A stretch of 64,000 nucleotides of DNA from Nosocomiicoccus ampullae (GTDB taxonomy: Bacteria; Bacillota; Bacilli; Staphylococcales; Salinicoccaceae). The notes beneath the pieces were generated by a model. The model was not told where the DNA came from. It did no database searches and saw only the letters and a list, made by a program, of their open reading frames with translations. Location of the stretch: assembly GCF_019357495.1 (NCBI RefSeq), contig NZ_CP079110.1, forward strand, positions 930,001 to 994,000, read 5' to 3'. Of this stretch, positions 9,491 to 48,534 are shown one piece after another. A program made the translations under genes and the position numbers. Position 1 is the stretch's first letter, and every line of letters starts with the position of its first letter.

Positions 9491-9947
9491 TTGTTTCACC
9501 TTTATCAAGATGTTTTAATGCATCCATTAACTGGTTAATATCTGTGAATTCTCTATACACACTCGCAAATCGTACGTAAGCGACTTGGTCTAAGTTCATC
9601 AATTCTTCCATCACAATTTCTCCAATATCATTAGAAGATACTTCGTTATTGTTTGTATTTCTAATTTTCTTTTCAATACGTTCGACACATTTTTCTACTT
9701 CAAGATAACTAATCGGTCGTTTTTCACAAGACTTCATTAAACCATCGAGTATTTTATCTCTATCGAATTTTTCACGTGTATTATCTTTTTTAATAACGAC
9801 AAGTGGCGATAATTCTATTCGTTCAAATGTCGTAAATCTAGAGTTGCACGCTTCACACTCACGACGACGTCTTATACTTGTCATATCATCTGCGTGACGT
9901 GAGTCGATTACTTTTGTGTTTTCGTGTTTACAATTTGGACAACGCAT
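9483..9947 (-). CDS. nrdR: Transcriptional repressor NrdR
   Basis: 154-aa repressor of ribonucleotide reductase genes. The N-terminal zinc ribbon has Cys3/Cys6 (CPNC) and Cys31/Cys34 (CEAC). An ATP-cone (VVIKKDNTREKFDRDKILDGL) senses ATP/dATP. It is first in nrdR-dnaB-dnaI, the order seen in staphylococci, linking dNTP supply to initiation genes. It starts 10 bp after a CTAGGTGATTG SD. Confidence 0.97.
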   Translation of the reverse strand: MRCPNCKHENTKVIDSRHADDMTSIRRRRECEACNSRFTTFERIELSPLVVIKKDNTREKFDRDKILDGLMKSCEKRPISYLEVEKCVERIEKKIRNTNNNEVSSNDIGEIVMEELMNLDQVAYVRFASVYREFTDINQLMDALKHLDKGETIE

Positions 9948-10003
9948 ACAATCACCTAGCTTTTTTCATAATTATAACATGATATACCATTTAACATTTA
10001 ATT

Positions 10004-10038
10004 AAAAAAACTCTCTATAAGTCATCCTTATAGAGAGT
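10004..10038 (-). terminator. Intrinsic terminator after gapB
   Basis: Perfect stem CTCTCTATAA / TTATAGAGAG with a 7-base loop, followed by seven U on the minus strand. It separates gapB from nrdR. Confidence 0.9.
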
Positions 10039-10059
10039 ATAATTCACTTCAAAAATTAA

Positions 10060-11067
10060 TTAAAGTTCTTTCGCAACACGTTCAACTAACTCTACTGTAC
10101 GTGTTGAGTAACCCCACTCGTTGTCGTACCAAGAAAGTACTTTTACTTGGTTATCACCAATTACCATTGTTAAATCACTATCAATAGTTGATGAGTGTGG
10201 ATTTGTATTAAAGTCACTTGAAACTAATGGTGCATCAGAAATTCCAAGAATACCTTTTAATTCACCTTCTGCAGCGTTTCTAAGTGCTTCGTTTACTTCT
10301 TCTTTAGTAACATTTTTGTTTAAGTCTACAACTAAGTCAACTAATGACACGTTATCAGTTGGAACACGTAGCGCCATACCATCTAATTTACCTTCTAATT
10401 CTGGTAATACTAATGCTGTTGCTTTTGCAGCTCCTGTTGATGTTGGTACAATGTTTTGAGCTGCTGAACGCGCACGACGTAAATCTTTGTGCGGATTGTC
10501 TAAGATTTTTTGGTCTGAAGTGTATGCGTGAACAGTTGTCACTAAACCTTTATCAATACCAAATGAATCATTTAATACTTTCGCAACCGGTGCTAAGCAG
10601 TTTGTTGTACATGAAGCATTTGAGAATACATCATATTTTTCAACATCTAAATCTTTGTCGTTAACGCCTAAAACGATTGTTTGTACGTCTCCACCTTTAG
10701 ATGGACCAGTTAATACAACTTTTTTTGCTCCAGCTGTTAAATGTTTAGATGCAGTATCTCCATGGTTGAAAGCACCTGTTGCTTCAAACACGATGTCTAC
10801 ACCTAAATCTTTCCAAGGTAAGTTTTCTGGATTACGGTCTCTAGTAATTTTGATTTCTTTGCCGTCAACAACTAAAGTATCGTTATCTTTAACCTCAACA
10901 GTTTTCTCCCATTTACCGTGAGTTGTGTCGTAGTTAAGTAAGTGAGCTAAGTCTTCAGCATCATAACTTGCGTTTACTGCTACGAGATTTAACGTATCAA
11001 AGTCGTGAACGATACGAAATACTTGTCTACCAATTCTTCCTAAACCGTTAATCGCTACATTTGTCAT
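10060..11067 (-). CDS. gapB: Glyceraldehyde-3-phosphate dehydrogenase (GapB type)
   Basis: 335-aa GAPDH with Rossmann start INGLGRIGRQVFR and catalytic ASCTTNCLAP. After strand beta-2 the sequence reads VNASYDAE rather than the VND(L/I) found in NAD-specific glycolytic GapA. Absence of that Asp is the usual mark of NADP-using, gluconeogenic GapB. The next gene upstream is coaE, as in staphylococcal gapB loci. Cofactor preference is inferred from this residue. A well-placed SD (AGGAGAG) precedes the ATG. Confidence 0.95.
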   Translation of the reverse strand: MTNVAINGLGRIGRQVFRIVHDFDTLNLVAVNASYDAEDLAHLLNYDTTHGKWEKTVEVKDNDTLVVDGKEIKITRDRNPENLPWKDLGVDIVFEATGAFNHGDTASKHLTAGAKKVVLTGPSKGGDVQTIVLGVNDKDLDVEKYDVFSNASCTTNCLAPVAKVLNDSFGIDKGLVTTVHAYTSDQKILDNPHKDLRRARSAAQNIVPTSTGAAKATALVLPELEGKLDGMALRVPTDNVSLVDLVVDLNKNVTKEEVNEALRNAAEGELKGILGISDAPLVSSDFNTNPHSSTIDSDLTMVIGDNQVKVLSWYDNEWGYSTRTVELVERVAKEL

Positions 11068-11117
11068 AGTTATAATCTCTCCTAGAATTTATTCAAGTTC
11101 ATTATAGCACATGAACG

Positions 11118-11702
11118 TTATAGTTGTTCAAGTAATTCATCAATCTCTCTATAAAGTTCATCTAAACTGCCACGGTTATCTAACACAACGTCTGCGTTTT
11201 CTTTCTTTTTAGATAAAGATAATTGTGACTTAATTCTTGCTTTCGCTTCTTCTACCGTATAATCATTTCTTTTCATTAATCTTTTAATTTGAGTCTCTGT
11301 ATCAACGTAGACGACAATGACAAAGTCAAACTGATCTTCTAATTTATTTTCGTATAATAATGGTATATCTGAGAATACATGACCGTCTTTAATATACTTT
11401 TCAGCATCTCTATCCATGTCTCGTCTAATTATTGGATGTGTAATATTATTTAAAACAGCAAGTTCATCCTTGTCATTAAATACGATGTCACCAAGCTTTT
11501 TACGATTTAATGTCCCGTCATCTTCTAATACGTCTTCACCAAAATGTTCAACAACCTTTTTAAGTCCTTCAGTTCCTTTGTTTAGTACGTTTCTTGCGTA
11601 TATATCAGCATCGAGTACGGTGTAGCCTTTATCTTTTAAATAGTTACTAACGGCACTTTTACCGCTTGCAATTCCACCCGTTAGTCCAATTTTTTTATAC
11701 AT
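11118..11702 (-). CDS. coaE: Dephospho-CoA kinase
   Basis: 194-aa P-loop kinase for the last step of CoA synthesis. Walker A is GLTGGIASGKSAVS. The CoA-binding and lid regions (LDADIYARNVL, HPIIRRDMD, RLMKRNDYTVEEA) are present. Start is the ATG at 11700-11702 with AGAGGTG seven bases upstream. The longer frame begins inside mutM without an SD. It lies 4 bp after mutM in the conserved polA-mutM-coaE string. Confidence 0.96.
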   Translation of the reverse strand: MYKKIGLTGGIASGKSAVSNYLKDKGYTVLDADIYARNVLNKGTEGLKKVVEHFGEDVLEDDGTLNRKKLGDIVFNDKDELAVLNNITHPIIRRDMDRDAEKYIKDGHVFSDIPLLYENKLEDQFDFVIVVYVDTETQIKRLMKRNDYTVEEAKARIKSQLSLSKKKENADVVLDNRGSLDELYREIDELLEQL

Positions 11703-16889: not shown

Positions 16890-17459
16890 TTACCTAACGT
16901 CAGAGATATTAGGCTCATAAATGCCGAGTTTCATAACAATTTGTCGAATACTTCCGGCGACAACTAATTGCATTAAAACTTTGATCATCCATTGACCTAA
17001 TATCGCATATGGTACGTCACTCCATTCTATAAAGCCCATACCAAATGGAGAAATACCAATAATCACAAATAATGCACTATCTAAAAAACCTGACGCAACG
17101 CCTGAGTACATCACGCGTCTAATAAACGGGATTTTAAAACGTGTATAAATCTCAGTATCAATTGTTTCAGAAATTAAAAACGTTACTGTACTTGCCATTA
17201 CAATCCATAACGGATCTCCAAGTACACGACTTGAAACTGCAGATAAAATTAACGCGAGCGCAATAAAGCCATATGTTTTTTTACGTCCATACACGTTTTG
17301 AACCATGTCTCTCATAACGAGTGTTAACCCAATAAAAAACGATCCAAACGGAATTAAAAATACACCGAGTTGAAACGTTCCGTAGCGCGCTGTGACGACG
17401 TTAGCGCCGATAATTGTTAATAAATAAATAATAACCCTAATTAGATTTTTTTCTTTCAT
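16890..17459 (-). CDS. Queuosine precursor transporter (YhhQ/VUT family)
   Basis: 189-aa membrane protein of the COG1738 family, which imports queuosine precursors (preQ0/preQ1 or queuine). About six hydrophobic helices, with family features RYGTFQLGVFLIPFGSFFIGLTLVMRD and SETIDTEIY. It overlaps the end of queC by 23 bp, so the two are made together, supporting a queuosine role. GAAGG-type SD inside queC. Confidence 0.9.
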   Translation of the reverse strand: MKEKNLIRVIIYLLTIIGANVVTARYGTFQLGVFLIPFGSFFIGLTLVMRDMVQNVYGRKKTYGFIALALILSAVSSRVLGDPLWIVMASTVTFLISETIDTEIYTRFKIPFIRRVMYSGVASGFLDSALFVIIGISPFGMGFIEWSDVPYAILGQWMIKVLMQLVVAGSIRQIVMKLGIYEPNISDVR

Positions 17460-18078
17460 ATTGCTTTAAACCTTCATTTCTAAGTATGCAAGCTGGACAT
17501 TCACCACATCCGCTTCCTTTAATACCGTTATAACACGTTAATGTCTCTTCTTTTATATATTGAAACACATCTAAATCATCAGCCATTTCCCACACTTCAC
17601 TTTTATCCTTATCCATAAGTGGTGTGTCAATTTTAATATGACGATCTAAACCTAAACGAATTGCCTCTTCTAAAGCGACAACAAATTCATTTCTACAATC
17701 CGGATAACCGCTATAATCTGTATCACTTACTCCAGTCACAATCGTATCTGCACCAATTTGATACGCTGCGATACTTGCGATATTAAAAAATAATATGTTG
17801 CGACCTGGCACAAATGTATTCGGCACGTCACCGCTGCTTTCAATATCGATATCTCTCGTTAACGCATTTTCTGTTAAATCATTAATTAACGACACATCGA
17901 CAACAATGTTTTTTACGTTAAAATCTTTTGCAATCTTTTGTGCAATTTCAACCTCTTCAGCGTGTCTTTGGTTATAGTGAAACGTAATTGTTTCTACTTC
18001 ATCGTAGTGTTTAAGTGCATATGCTAAACATGTTGTGCTATCTTGCCCACCACTAAATACAATTAATGCTTTAGACAT
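17437..18078 (-). CDS. queC: 7-cyano-7-deazaguanine synthase
   Basis: 213-aa ATP-dependent enzyme that turns 7-carboxy-7-deazaguanine into preQ0. The PP-loop SGGQDSTTCL is at the N-terminus, and a C-terminal zinc site has C-x(8)-C-x2-C-x2-C (CYNGIKGSGCGECPAC). It lies 9 bp after queF and overlaps the transporter gene. queD and queE, which make its substrate, are not in this window. Confidence 0.96.
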   Translation of the reverse strand: MSKALIVFSGGQDSTTCLAYALKHYDEVETITFHYNQRHAEEVEIAQKIAKDFNVKNIVVDVSLINDLTENALTRDIDIESSGDVPNTFVPGRNILFFNIASIAAYQIGADTIVTGVSDTDYSGYPDCRNEFVVALEEAIRLGLDRHIKIDTPLMDKDKSEVWEMADDLDVFQYIKEETLTCYNGIKGSGCGECPACILRNEGLKQYERKKSN

Positions 18079-18087
18079 ATAAACTTC

Positions 18088-18576
18088 CTATCTATTATCA
18101 ATTTTTTCAGGGTACATATCATGTTCAAAGAGACGTTTTTCAGCCATTTTTTCAAACTTAGTCCCTGGTTTACCATAATTTGCATAAGGATCTATTGAAA
18201 TACCACCGCGCGGTGTGAATTTACCCCAAACTTCAATATACTTCGGATCCATTAACTCAATTAAATCTTTCATAATCATATTTACTGCGGATTCATGGAA
18301 TCCACCGTGATTTCTATAACTAAATAAATATAATTTTAATGATTTACTTTCAACCATTTTAATATCTGGTATATAACTAATATAAATTGTTGCGAAATCT
18401 GGTTGATTTGTCATCGGACATAGTGTTGTAAATTCTGGACAGTTAAACTTCACCATATAATCCATTTCTCTATGGCTATTATCAAATGTTTCTAACACAC
18501 TTGTATCGTAAGTAGTTGGATATTGTACGTTTTGATTACCCAGTAATGTTAAATCATTCATCGTTTCGTCTTTCAT
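18088..18576 (-). CDS. queF: NADPH-dependent 7-cyano-7-deazaguanine reductase
   Basis: 162-aa type I (YkvM-like) QueF, which reduces preQ0 to preQ1. Catalytic Cys in [20 protein letters not shown]/substrate loop [20 protein letters not shown] (a QueF signature), and a conserved C-terminal [12 protein letters not shown]. First gene of queF-queC-transporter. AAAGGAG SD. No preQ1 riboswitch is visible in the short leader. Confidence 0.96.
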
Positions 18577-18621
18577 TATGATTCTCCTTTAAATATAGTC
18601 TTATTAATTATATAAGATAAA

Positions 18622-18652
18622 AATAAAAAATAGAACCACCTCAGTGGTTCTA
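18622..18652 (-). terminator. Intrinsic terminator after icd
   Basis: Stem TAGAACCACT / AGTGGTTCTA followed by U-rich sequence on the minus strand, between icd and queF. Confidence 0.85.
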
Positions 18653-18660
18653 TTCATTTA

Positions 18661-19926
18661 CTATTGCATGTTTTCAACAAGTAAGTCGCCGAATTCAGAA
18701 GTTTTAACTTCCGACGCGTTATCCATTAATCTCGCGAAGTCGTATGTGACTGTTTTATTAGCGATAGTTGTTTCCATCGATTTATTAATTAAGTCCGCTG
18801 CTTCTTGCCAACCAAGGTGCTCTAACATAAGTACTGCAGATAAAATAACTGATGACGGGTTTACAACGTCTAAACCAGCGTATTTTGGTGCAGTACCATG
18901 TGTTGCTTCAAAGATCGCATGTCCTGTGTTGTAGTTGATATTTGCACCTGGTGCTATACCTACTCCACCGACTTGTGCTGCAAGTGCATCAGAAATGTAG
19001 TCTCCGTTTAGGTTCATCGTAGCTACAACTGTATGGTCTAGTGGATTTAAAAGAATTTGTTGTAAGAAAATATCTGCGATAGAGTCTTTAACGATAATCT
19101 TACCTGCTTTTTCAGCTTCTTCTTGAGCTTTGTTCGCAGCTTCTTTACCTTCTTTTTCTACGATTCTATCGTATTCACCCCAAGTAAATACTTTATCGCC
19201 ATATTCTCTTTCAGCTAGTTCATAGCCCCATTTTTTGAATCCACCTTCAGTGAACTTCATGATGTTACCTTTATGAACGAGTGTAACTGTTGGTTTATTG
19301 TGCTCGATCGCATAGTCAATCGCCGCTTTAATTAAACGTTCAGATCCTTCTTTAGAAACTGGTTTTACACCGATTGCTGATGATTCTGGGAAGCGAATAT
19401 TTTGTACACCCATCTCATCTTGTAAGAAGTTAATAATTTTTTTAACTTCATCACTGCCTGATTCGAATTCGATACCTGCGTAAATATCTTCAGTGTTTTC
19501 ACGGAAGATTGCCATATCAACTTCCTCAGGATTTTTAACCGGTGACGGCACACCGCTATAGTGTCTAACCGGACGTAAGCATACGTATAAATCAAGTTGT
19601 TGTCTTAATGCAACGTTTAATGAACGAATACCTCCACCGATTGGTGTTGTTAGTGGTCCTTTAATTGCGATTAAGTACTCGTTAATTTTATCGAGCGTGT
19701 CTTGTGGTAACCATTCGCCTGTTTTATCGTATGCTTTTTGACCAGCAAAAACTTCAAGCCATTCAATTTTCTTTTCACCGTTATATGCTTTTTCTACAGC
19801 ACTATCGATGACTTTTTTAGCTGCTGGCCAGATGTCTTGACCAATTCCATCTCCTTCGATAAATGGAATGACTGGGTGGTTAGGTACGTTTAGTACACCA
19901 TTTTCTAAAGTAATTTTTTCTGCCAT
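18661..19926 (-). CDS. icd: Isocitrate dehydrogenase (NADP+)
   Basis: 421-aa TCA-cycle enzyme. Substrate loop [20 protein letters not shown], metal-binding Asp residues in the C-terminal half ([17 protein letters not shown]) and the NADP loop [10 protein letters not shown] are present. It follows citZ by 12 bp, forming a citZ-icd operon. No malate dehydrogenase gene follows, unlike in Bacillus. Confidence 0.97.
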
Positions 19927-45927: not shown

Positions 45928-45950
45928 ACAACTTAATTTCTACAATCACC

Positions 45951-46373: not shown

Positions 46374-46517
46374 TTATATAAGTAATGAATCTGCTCCTAA
46401 ATTTTGAGTATAGTAATATTCTTGTGGAATTCTAATTAAATCATCCAACTTATTTGTTTTCATTTTTAATATAAAAGTTTTTAAATCATATTTATTTAAT
46501 ATTTTAAATTTCTCCAT
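46374..46517 (-). CDS. Tiny ORF (47 aa) overlapping the end of the zinc-ribbon gene
   Basis: ATG at 46515-46517 lies inside the last codons of the 72-aa gene (overlap 14 bp), so it would be translated by coupling; no independent SD. The product starts MEKFKILNKYDLKTFILK and ends GADSLLI, with a protein-like helix pattern and no Cys or TM. Unrecognised. Alternatively it is the frame-shifted second half of one protein of about 115 aa with the upstream gene. Confidence 0.5.
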   Translation of the reverse strand: MEKFKILNKYDLKTFILKMKTNKLDDLIRIPQEYYYTQNLGADSLLI

Positions 46518-46722
46518 CTTTTACCAAAAACTCATACTGATCTATAAAATAGCCCCTATCTCTCAAACACACTATTTTTTTCTCTGGTCCTTCTGGTAAT
46601 TCAACAGTATTTAAAAACTCTCCACATGCAAAACAACGACCTAAGAATTCTTCTTTTGGAAGTACTTCTTCATCTGTATAATCTATCCATTTTTCAATTT
46701 CTTCTTCAGTGAATATTCTCAT
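46504..46722 (-). CDS. Small acidic protein with Cys knuckle
   Basis: 72 aa. A CFACG knuckle plus one further Cys (VCLRDRG) suggests a minimal zinc-binding motif. Otherwise acidic. Start at 46722 with GAAGGA seven bases ahead. Lies in the accessory region downstream of the Kiwa-like pair, after a weak terminator-like hairpin (46786-46806). It may be a separate moron gene or an extra partner of the defence pair. Not recognised. Confidence 0.65.
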   Translation of the reverse strand: MRIFTEEEIEKWIDYTDEEVLPKEEFLGRCFACGEFLNTVELPEGPEKKIVCLRDRGYFIDQYEFLVKDGEI

Positions 46723-46812
46723 TGTTATTCCTTCTTTCACTTATATATAGGTAATTATGCTGACCAATAACTTTAAGGTGTTAAAAATAAGGCGATTACC
46801 TTATATTAATAT

Positions 46813-47373
46813 TCAAGATTTATTGTATAAATAATATACATTGTCAAATAAATTTACCCTAGTGCTCTTACTCTTAAGAACCTTTTTATCTTTTACAAGT
46901 ATATATCCTTCTACTATCCTATCTCCATCTTTAAAAACGGCATAATATATCTTATAACCACTAAATAAAAAGATAGGATTTATAATGATATATTCTGTTT
47001 TAACCATAATTAATATTATGAAATTCAAGATGACTAATAAAACAAAATAATCAAATTGCGTTCTAAACTCTAAGAATAGGAATGGCATCAATAACGATAG
47101 AACAAAAAATGTATACTCATTCGCTGATATCTTATCATATTTTTTAATTTGTATAATATCAGTAGTTTTACTTTTCTTCTTTTTCATATTTATAAAAATT
47201 GTCGGCACTAGTTTATAGGTGACAATATAAATTATCGTAATAATTATTAAAAGAATAACCATTTCATATTTTGCAAAAATGTTCTTTGTAACTAAATAAT
47301 CTCGTATTTCACCATAAATTATTAAAACTAATAATGGTGTATAGGCAACAAACCATAAAATATATTGAAACAA
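46813..47373 (-). CDS. KwaA-like four-TM membrane protein (Kiwa-type defence)
   Basis: 186 aa with four hydrophobic helices (about 3-21, 36-60, 86-103, 107-124) and a soluble tail (INPIFLFSGYKIYYAVFKDG...). This is the size and layout of KwaA, the membrane partner of Kiwa, which senses phage attachment at the envelope and works with KwaB. It is immediately downstream (21 bp) of a KwaB-like gene. Start is uncertain: TTG at 47371-47373 with AAGAAG almost touching it; in-frame alternatives are ATA/ATC a few codons earlier. The identification rests on topology plus neighbour. Confidence 0.6.
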   Translation of the reverse strand: MFQYILWFVAYTPLLVLIIYGEIRDYLVTKNIFAKYEMVILLIIITIIYIVTYKLVPTIFINMKKKKSKTTDIIQIKKYDKISANEYTFFVLSLLMPFLFLEFRTQFDYFVLLVILNFIILIMVKTEYIIINPIFLFSGYKIYYAVFKDGDRIVEGYILVKDKKVLKSKSTRVNLFDNVYYLYNKS

Positions 47374-47394
47374 CTTCTTAGATTCGATTATTAA

Positions 47395-48405
47395 TCACTC
47401 TTCTCTATATCCAATTATTGATTGAATTTTTTGCGTCAAATAAGAAGTTACAATTTTGTTTTGAAATAAATAAATTACTGGAGTTAAATCATTCTTATCA
47501 CTCTCTTTAATTTCAATTGTATTGTTTTCGAAATTAATAAACTTCATTAAATCATAAACAATGTCTAACTCCTTTTTTAAACTATCTACTGAACTAGGGC
47601 GTTTCTCCATTGCATCTTTTATGTCTTTTAATTCATTACATCTATCGTCAAAATGACTTTTTAAATCACTTAAAGTATCCTCAGATATTTGAGCCATTGA
47701 TCTTGAGCGTACATATTTAGTAGCTTCACTCCTAAAGTAATCAATCGAACTTTGGTTAGCAAAAATATTTTGATTAACTATTCTATCAATATTACTATCT
47801 CTTTGCATTTCTATGTGTTCACTATACTTAAACGCCCATTCAAAATGTTGTGGATTATTAACAATTATATAATTTTTATATATAATAAAACTTATATAAC
47901 CACCAACTTCAATGACTGATTCGGTTACTTCTTTATATTCTTCAAGTAATATACCTAATTTTTTATTTCTTCCAGCACCTTTTTCTCCTCTATAATAACC
48001 AAAATAACACCATTCATTTTTTGATGTGCAATGAATTTTTAACAAATGAAAAGAGGCATTTTTCATATCAAGTTTATTTTCAGACATCGATTTATATATT
48101 AATTCCAAATTGTTTTTTATACTTTCAAATTCATCAATATTAATAACTGGTAAAGTCTCGTTAACGTGGAATTCATTGTTATAATTAGTAAAATAAAACT
48201 CATCTTCTACTTTTAACCTGTTTAAATTATCGATAATATTAGACTTTAAAAAGTCTTGTAATTTAGTATCTATATTAACTTCTTTACACTCGTATTTTAA
48301 ATCTAAATTATTAAAATGCCCAAAATAAAATAACTCTAACTCAAATTCCAAGGTTCTTTGTGATAACTCATTTAAAAAGATTTTTAAATCTTCGATTTGG
48401 TTCAT
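47395..48405 (-). CDS. KwaB-like DUF4868 protein (Kiwa-type defence)
   Basis: 336 aa, soluble, no signal. The middle part has the DUF4868/KwaB pattern: FGYYRGEKG..., then IIYKNYIIVNNPQHFEWAFKY with a hydrophobic strand followed by N-x(4)-FE-x2-FxY. The C-terminal half is mostly helical. In Kiwa, KwaB binds DNA and blocks phage replication/late transcription after KwaA senses infection (established for E. coli Kiwa). The order here is kwaB then kwaA, the reverse of E. coli. Start ATG 48403-48405 with GAGG/GGGGA ahead. Lies between a dead endolysin and the remnant edge, a typical prophage moron slot. Confidence 0.68.
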   Translation of the reverse strand: MNQIEDLKIFLNELSQRTLEFELELFYFGHFNNLDLKYECKEVNIDTKLQDFLKSNIIDNLNRLKVEDEFYFTNYNNEFHVNETLPVINIDEFESIKNNLELIYKSMSENKLDMKNASFHLLKIHCTSKNEWCYFGYYRGEKGAGRNKKLGILLEEYKEVTESVIEVGGYISFIIYKNYIIVNNPQHFEWAFKYSEHIEMQRDSNIDRIVNQNIFANQSSIDYFRSEATKYVRSRSMAQISEDTLSDLKSHFDDRCNELKDIKDAMEKRPSSVDSLKKELDIVYDLMKFINFENNTIEIKESDKNDLTPVIYLFQNKIVTSYLTQKIQSIIGYREE

Positions 48406-48423
48406 TCCCCTAACCTCTTTCAG

Positions 48424-48534
48424 TGTGTAGTTATACACATTTTAACTGTAAGCAGTTCAATAAGCAATAAAATTATACAAAAATAGCTGTTAGCGAGGTG
48501 ACTAACAGCTTAACTACACATTTATATTATATCA
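48424..48534 (-). promoter_or_regulatory. Promoter and attenuator-like leader of the Kiwa-like operon
   Basis: Extended -10 TGATATAAT on the minus strand (48526-48534). RNA would start near 48519, at GTGTAGTTA. Next comes a terminator-like hairpin GCTGTTAG...CTAACAGC + ATTTTT (about 48479-48509). Then TAACTACACA (48433-48424), which is the perfect 10-bp complement of the RNA's 5' end, just before the kwaB SD. A second possible -10 (TATAAC, 48430-48435) lies inside the 16-bp palindrome TGTGTAGTTATACACA (48424-48439). Confidence 0.55.

Follow-up and report, generated by a model that had tools for sequence, protein, structure and literature searches.

Kiwa of Escherichia coli carries its two genes in the order opposite to kwaB-kwaA. 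In Streptococcus thermophilus 90730, kwaB (0688) comes before kwaA (0689), and the pair blocks phages (PMC11514479). There are few worked examples of how prophages avoid self-killing by their own defense genes on induction; in one of them, Ith/Tha of Staphylococcus aureus phage 80alpha, the prophage shuts off its own defense on induction by means of an antisense gene together with an inhibitor protein (PMC11087260). A noncoding RNA adjoins and controls a prophage defense gene in the AbiF/RCd22 system of a C. difficile prophage, where RCd22 binds protein in a type III-like manner (PMC12373285). The window analyzed here (the whole stretch of 64,000 nucleotides of Nosocomiicoccus ampullae DNA) contains a Kiwa pair that has the same proteins as those of E. 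coli and S. thermophilus 90730 by profile and, for KwaB, by fold, in the gene order of S. thermophilus; it differs from them in the low identity of its KwaB (12 to 13% to structurally solved KwaB proteins) and in an sRNA-type leader that we did not find described. We propose, at a probability of about one-half, that an intact Kiwa pair in a prophage remnant is controlled by a same-strand upstream antisense small RNA (sRNA), by which the element would silence its own defense on induction.

The product of kwaB (336 amino acids [aa]; 48405 to 47395, minus strand, as are all genes and leader elements given below) scored 31.4 bits against the Pfam KwaB family (PF16162/DUF4868; cutoff, 26.3) and matched the PADLOC KwaB model; its AlphaFold model, made from an 8-sequence alignment with a mean pLDDT of 80, matched the KwaB crystal structures 9nyu and 9mtn in Foldseek (E of ~4e-8; probability, 1.0). 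The membrane protein KwaA (186 aa; 47373 to 46813), whose gene begins with TTG after a gap of 21 bp, has three strong hydrophobic stretches by hydropathy and matched 11 PADLOC KwaA models (best, 6e-11), and its family profile found the solved KwaA 9o0i (E of 1.7e-4); the match to NCBIfam NF041622 (3.5e-11) reached 43 bits, below the model cutoff of 100. The two genes are thus an intact Kiwa pair by every sequence test but the strict NCBIfam cutoff. An earlier sequence-only reading of this DNA had given the coordinates, strand, layout, and spacing of the genes correctly, and its assignment of them to a DUF4868/KwaB-like protein and a KwaA homolog is borne out by these matches; of the four membrane segments that it gave KwaA, hydropathy shows three strongly. 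That reading had also treated the gene order as reversed. However, kwaA lies directly 3' of kwaB, adjacent and codirectional, in all 12 Bacilli genome loci beyond the window's own and in all 9 viral loci fetched; because these loci and the active Kiwa of S. thermophilus all have it, kwaB-kwaA is the usual Gram-positive order and nothing new. Neither its proteins nor its gene order set the Kiwa of this lineage apart; it is a further member of a known system whose genes, as had been expected, occur together elsewhere.

Two small open reading frames beyond kwaA had been suggested as additional parts of the system, a suggestion that found no support. The 72-aa product with a CxxC motif (46722 to 46504) is an orphan, having no relative in profile and homolog searches of the 33 family genomes, phage records, viral contigs, and flanks of the other Kiwa loci checked, so that the gene does not accompany the pair at those loci. 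The overlapping 47-aa frame (46517 to 46374) gave no convincing family match in profile searches and may not be a real gene.

The pair sits in what is left of a prophage, an insert of ~3.5 kb at the rpsD attachment site, behind rpsD, with approximate ends at 45928 and 49465. The extent of this insert follows from the empty rpsD junction of a congener (G018, contig C84), in which the 3' end of rpsD is followed by ~38 bp and then by sequence matching the window from 49466 onward, and the edge of the remnant postulated by the sequence-only reading is therefore real. In another contig of this congener (C89; L343), the rpsD 3' end adjoins the end of a prophage that encodes a 406-aa integrase. This prophage end also includes a repressor region, and beside it lies a gene for a 345-aa nuclease-like secreted or anchored protein. 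Next to the Kiwa pair in the window, open reading frame calls and profile searches identified a broken endolysin (49390 to 48601), as had been noted: its Amidase_2 part (49390 to 48905) has lost the N terminus, and its CW_7 repeats (48927 to 48601) are in a different frame. The accessory slot after the lysin is likewise confirmed, since phage phi879 (KY389064) has an amidase gene followed by kwaB-kwaA in the same place, there annotated as DUF4868 and a hypothetical transmembrane (TM) protein and preceded by a leader as in the window, and three viral contigs (L325, L326, and L332) carry Kiwa in this position too. A tblastn search with KwaB against annotated phages and plasmids returned nothing, though the divergent phi879 copy is among them; it was reached via the leader.

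This leader, which the sequence-only reading had not noticed, spans 130 bp upstream from kwaB and has two -10 boxes either side of a predicted ~41-nucleotide (nt) RNA with a terminator hairpin. A 33-bp match 5' of kwaB recurs in other Staphylococcales, ahead of Kiwa and of other genes, and the leader elements always follow one order: a TATAAT box, 6 nt, the GTGTAGT arm, a hairpin plus T-run, another box resembling TATAAT, 6 to 7 nt, ACTACAC, the ribosome-binding site, and the start codon. In the window, the first box (P1; TATAAT; 48531 to 48526), the putative sRNA promoter, lies 18 bp downstream of a LexA/SOS-box-like operator, GAATGTATGTTC (48561 to 48550), and, at a conserved distance, 6 nt ahead of where the RNA is predicted to start; it is TATAAT in 22 of the 23 aligned leaders and TATACT in the remaining one. 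The predicted antisense RNA (48519 to 48479) consists of a 5' tail, GUGUAGUU (48519 to 48513), and a hairpin (48510 to 48485) with the loop UCACCUCG and a U-run terminator. Its fold has a z of -3.46 for 48519 to 48474, a terminator scan also picks up the hairpin, and the covariance model scores it at 105 bits, the window being among the sequences used to build the model. The second box (P2; TAAAAT; 48444 to 48439) is column equivalent to TATAAT or TAATAT elsewhere, has a weak -35, and would drive kwaBA transcription. At the predicted mRNA 5' end, AACTACAC (48432 to 48425, with ACTACAC at 48431 to 48425), is the 8-bp target of the sRNA tail, and GAGGT in the kwaB ribosome-binding site (48417 to 48413) is the target of the loop ACCUC (48499 to 48495). 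A simple sigma-70 scan called neither -10 element on this strand, so the assignment of P1 and P2 rests on their conservation across leaders. The earlier claim that the pair has its own promoter stands in part: -10-like elements are present at two places, but a terminator hairpin lies between them and the scan was silent on both.

That the leader works through RNA pairing is well supported by covariation among 23 distinct aligned leaders. The helix between tail and mRNA is paired in 96% of the cells of the alignment, and both partners have changed in 5 of its 9 pairs; the terminator hairpin is paired in 99%, with both partners changed in 8 of 11 pairs; pairing falls to 25 to 50% when the partner is slid by 1 to 3 columns, and none of 500 shuffles reached the covariation score. 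The leaders thus have the conserved structure with compensatory changes that is looked for in an antisense sRNA. Cognate sRNA/mRNA interaction energies, calculated in silico, were -6 to -11 kcal/mol, and the own mRNA was the best partner for three of the four arm classes (GUGUAGU/ACUACAC, GUGUAUU/AAUACAC, and ACGUUGU/ACAACGU), the fourth, a decayed variant (L006), showing no preference for its own partner. Complementarity to the 5' untranslated region and ribosome-binding site of the target is also kept across divergent copies: the loop pairs with the Shine-Dalgarno region as UUCCCC/GGGGAA in most leaders, as ACCUC/GAGGU in the window, and as UUCUCC/GGAGGA in G028, and complementarity persists in most of the divergent leaders, weakly in G033. 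The individual loop matches are short (4 to 7 bp) and taken singly do not go beyond shuffled loops in most cases. In two further phage lineages (L328, 12 bp; L329, 14 bp), the sequence ahead of Kiwa has a similar layout with unrelated arms; the antisense scores are within the shuffle range, and we regard these putative antisense layouts as leads. A free duplex scan over all Kiwa leaders was not discriminating.

If the pairings occur as predicted, P1 would give the ~41-nt RNA and P2 the kwaBA mRNA; the unpaired 5' tail of the sRNA would bind the 5' end of the mRNA and the terminator loop its Shine-Dalgarno region, and both pairings would block ribosome entry and thereby synthesis of KwaB, the presumed DNA-binding effector, and KwaA, the presumed membrane sensor. 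The leader resembles type I toxin-antitoxin and antisense-sRNA modules (hok/sok and SR6/yonT) in that a small antisense RNA is predicted to block translation of an adjacent, potentially harmful gene; it differs from them in that its sRNA is on the same strand, in tandem and nonoverlapping, and in that its targets are multigene defense systems of several unrelated families. As in AbiF/RCd22, an RNA lies beside the defense gene that it would control, whereas the pairing predicted for the leader is between RNAs at the ribosome-binding site.

The timing of the sRNA would be set at P1. A LexA-like box (GAAC-N4-GTTC, at most 1 mismatch) lies just 5' of P1 in 10 of 38 leader rows, compared with 0.8% of shuffles; the box of the window is imperfect, with 1 mismatch. 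Leaders of the phi879 type differ from that of the window in having the palindrome ATTAGTATCTACTAAT over P1 in place of the LexA-like box, and those of the S. aureus pathogenicity island (SaPI) type have the palindrome TTAGTACTAGGTACTAA there. Together, LexA boxes or palindromes cover P1 in about two-thirds of leaders; in the remaining third or so (for example, the S. pseudintermedius type), the scan found neither a LexA box nor a strong palindrome. At one SaPI locus (L272), the palindrome over P1 has, in its exact 17-bp form, a single further copy, which lies 77 bp upstream from the integrase gene; this suggests that the sRNA is made together with the induction programme of the element. No other step of the argument is as weak. 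The integrase-operator copy is found at that SaPI locus only, and the phi879 palindrome, sought at cI/cro, has no exact recurrence in the stretch read. With a LexA box, P1 would be shut in quiet lysogens, leaving Kiwa on, and would fire on SOS induction; a replicating element would thereby silence its own defense and avoid attacking itself, a parallel to Ith/Tha in aim and not in means, since the leader is proposed to act by a tandem sRNA. As no lytic genes are left in this remnant, its switch may have outlived its use or may only limit Kiwa during SOS. At two loci (L128, position 10528; L332, position 5647), a second LexA-type box, GAACATACGTTC, lies ~1 kb or more 3' of the Kiwa genes.

The chief rival to self-silencing on induction uses the same pairing with the sRNA on in quiet lysogens, as an infection-responsive switch like hok/sok: a labile sRNA would silence the defense mRNA until a phage stops host transcription; with its supply cut and the remaining sRNA decaying, translation of the stored mRNA would begin. 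It draws on the same RNA pairing evidence, and a review names inhibition of the host RNA polymerase among the triggers of Kiwa (PMC12904381). However, the LexA boxes and palindromes over P1 suggest a promoter that is shut in quiet lysogens, contrary to constitutive silencing, and nothing indicates a long-lived mRNA; we give this reading perhaps a little under half the weight of self-silencing. Somewhat less probable is a cis attenuator, in which tail and target act only in transcripts that read through from P1, the tail and the mRNA 5' region forming a long-range helix around the terminator that hides the ribosome-binding site. The fold of the full leader does pair GUGUAGUU with AACUACAC (z of -2.79), but the other -10 box, conserved in its position immediately 5' of the target, argues for a separate mRNA. 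We consider it unlikely that GTGTAGT and ACTACAC are inverted repressor sites in the DNA beside a hairpin that is merely a terminator: such sites would covary likewise, yet G-U pairs are present within the covarying helices, both arms lie at the predicted +1 of two promoters, and the loop and ribosome-binding site both change while staying complementary (window and G028). Slightly less probable still is a plain Kiwa accessory gene pair with a constitutive promoter, its leader resembling the others only because cassettes recombine at a border that they share, because recombination alone would not keep base pairing through double changes, even if the leader does serve as a common border across unrelated cargo.

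That cargo was surveyed in a census of 33 first genes behind leaders. Besides Kiwa, the first genes comprise a DUF6731 group of seven (the two that were tested scored ~116 bits each), clusters A and B, which are distantly related to that group, small clusters E and F, and singletons; clusters A, B, and C are distantly related to one another. Where the second gene could be read (27 leaders), its product is a membrane protein by hydropathy in 24, and the gene before it encodes a soluble protein of ~280 to 380 aa. A cluster A model matched lambda RexA (8twq; E of 1.4e-5) and also RdgC, with low TM-scores; this being a single model of moderate confidence, we call the predicted fold of cluster A RexA/RdgC-like and claim nothing further. 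By profile, no homology to KwaB or RexA was found for the cargo other than Kiwa, cluster A included. Behind one leader lie genes for an AAA ATPase and a D12 methylase, the latter matching PD-Lambda-5_B at 3.5e-107. Cargo outside the soluble-plus-TM type and of unassigned kind follows five leaders (L245, L072, L268, L127, and L315), with products of 304 and 100 aa, 174 aa, 254 aa, and 357 and 265 aa. The leaders reside in prophages, ~15 of them with a lysin gene at most 3 kb upstream, and also in SaPI contexts, with SaPI genes around, so that one leader is common to several unrelated (candidate) defense pairs in staphylococcal prophages and SaPIs.

A pattern of loop plus ribosome-binding site matched 10 of 157 genomes of the order, compared with none for the reversed-pattern control, and the leader is also on more than 20 viral contigs, lysogens with it including Mammaliicoccus sciuri IVB6223 and IVB6228 (phi6223 and phi6228); the window itself was missed by this pattern because its loop differs. 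The covariance model added divergent members outside its training set (G015, G022, G028, G033, and G052); among 301 genomes sampled from the class but not from Staphylococcales, it gave no convincing match. Weak matches in G005, G018, G042, G068, and G324 were judged to be chance or decayed. In G107, the ribosome-binding-site part and the cargo are kept, with no clear antisense arm. No Rfam family matched the leader at the curated score, and no description of it was found in the literature searched, in which subscription papers and preprints are thinly covered; the sRNA switch is apparently undescribed so far, and with this leader the locus would represent a new form of RNA control of phage defense.

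The leader suggests how phages and islands turn their own defenses on and off, and the short RNA, readable target, several unrelated cassettes, and LexA boxes in about one-quarter of copies make self-silencing directly testable. More tentatively, and with less assurance than for the Kiwa locus itself, we speculate that tandem antisense RNAs, controlled by SOS or by a repressor of the element, are a general off-switch for interchangeable defense cassettes (Kiwa, RexA/RdgC-like and DUF6731 membrane pairs, and ATPase-methylase pairs) in Gram-positive temperate phages and SaPIs, protecting the element on induction. The leader might then be a tag for finding unknown defense systems: most of the linked pairs are unnamed, candidate systems missed by current libraries, for which it could be used as bait.

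Several loci show further variation. In the Staphylococcus genome G102 (L043), two leader-linked pairs, Kiwa and DUF6731 plus a TM protein, lie 8 kb apart (9541 to 11164 and 17337 to 18839); P1 of the second leader has been lost, apparently through an insertion. In G113 (L051, 4908 to 6800), the leader is followed by a kwaB-like start that is broken by a transposase gene. Several Bacillaceae-type kwaB genes (L013, L016, L330, and L333) have a TGTCGAA motif shortly 5' of the start codon, which we take to resemble a Spo0A box, and at two of these loci (L013 and L016) an upstream stretch is able to pair with this motif.
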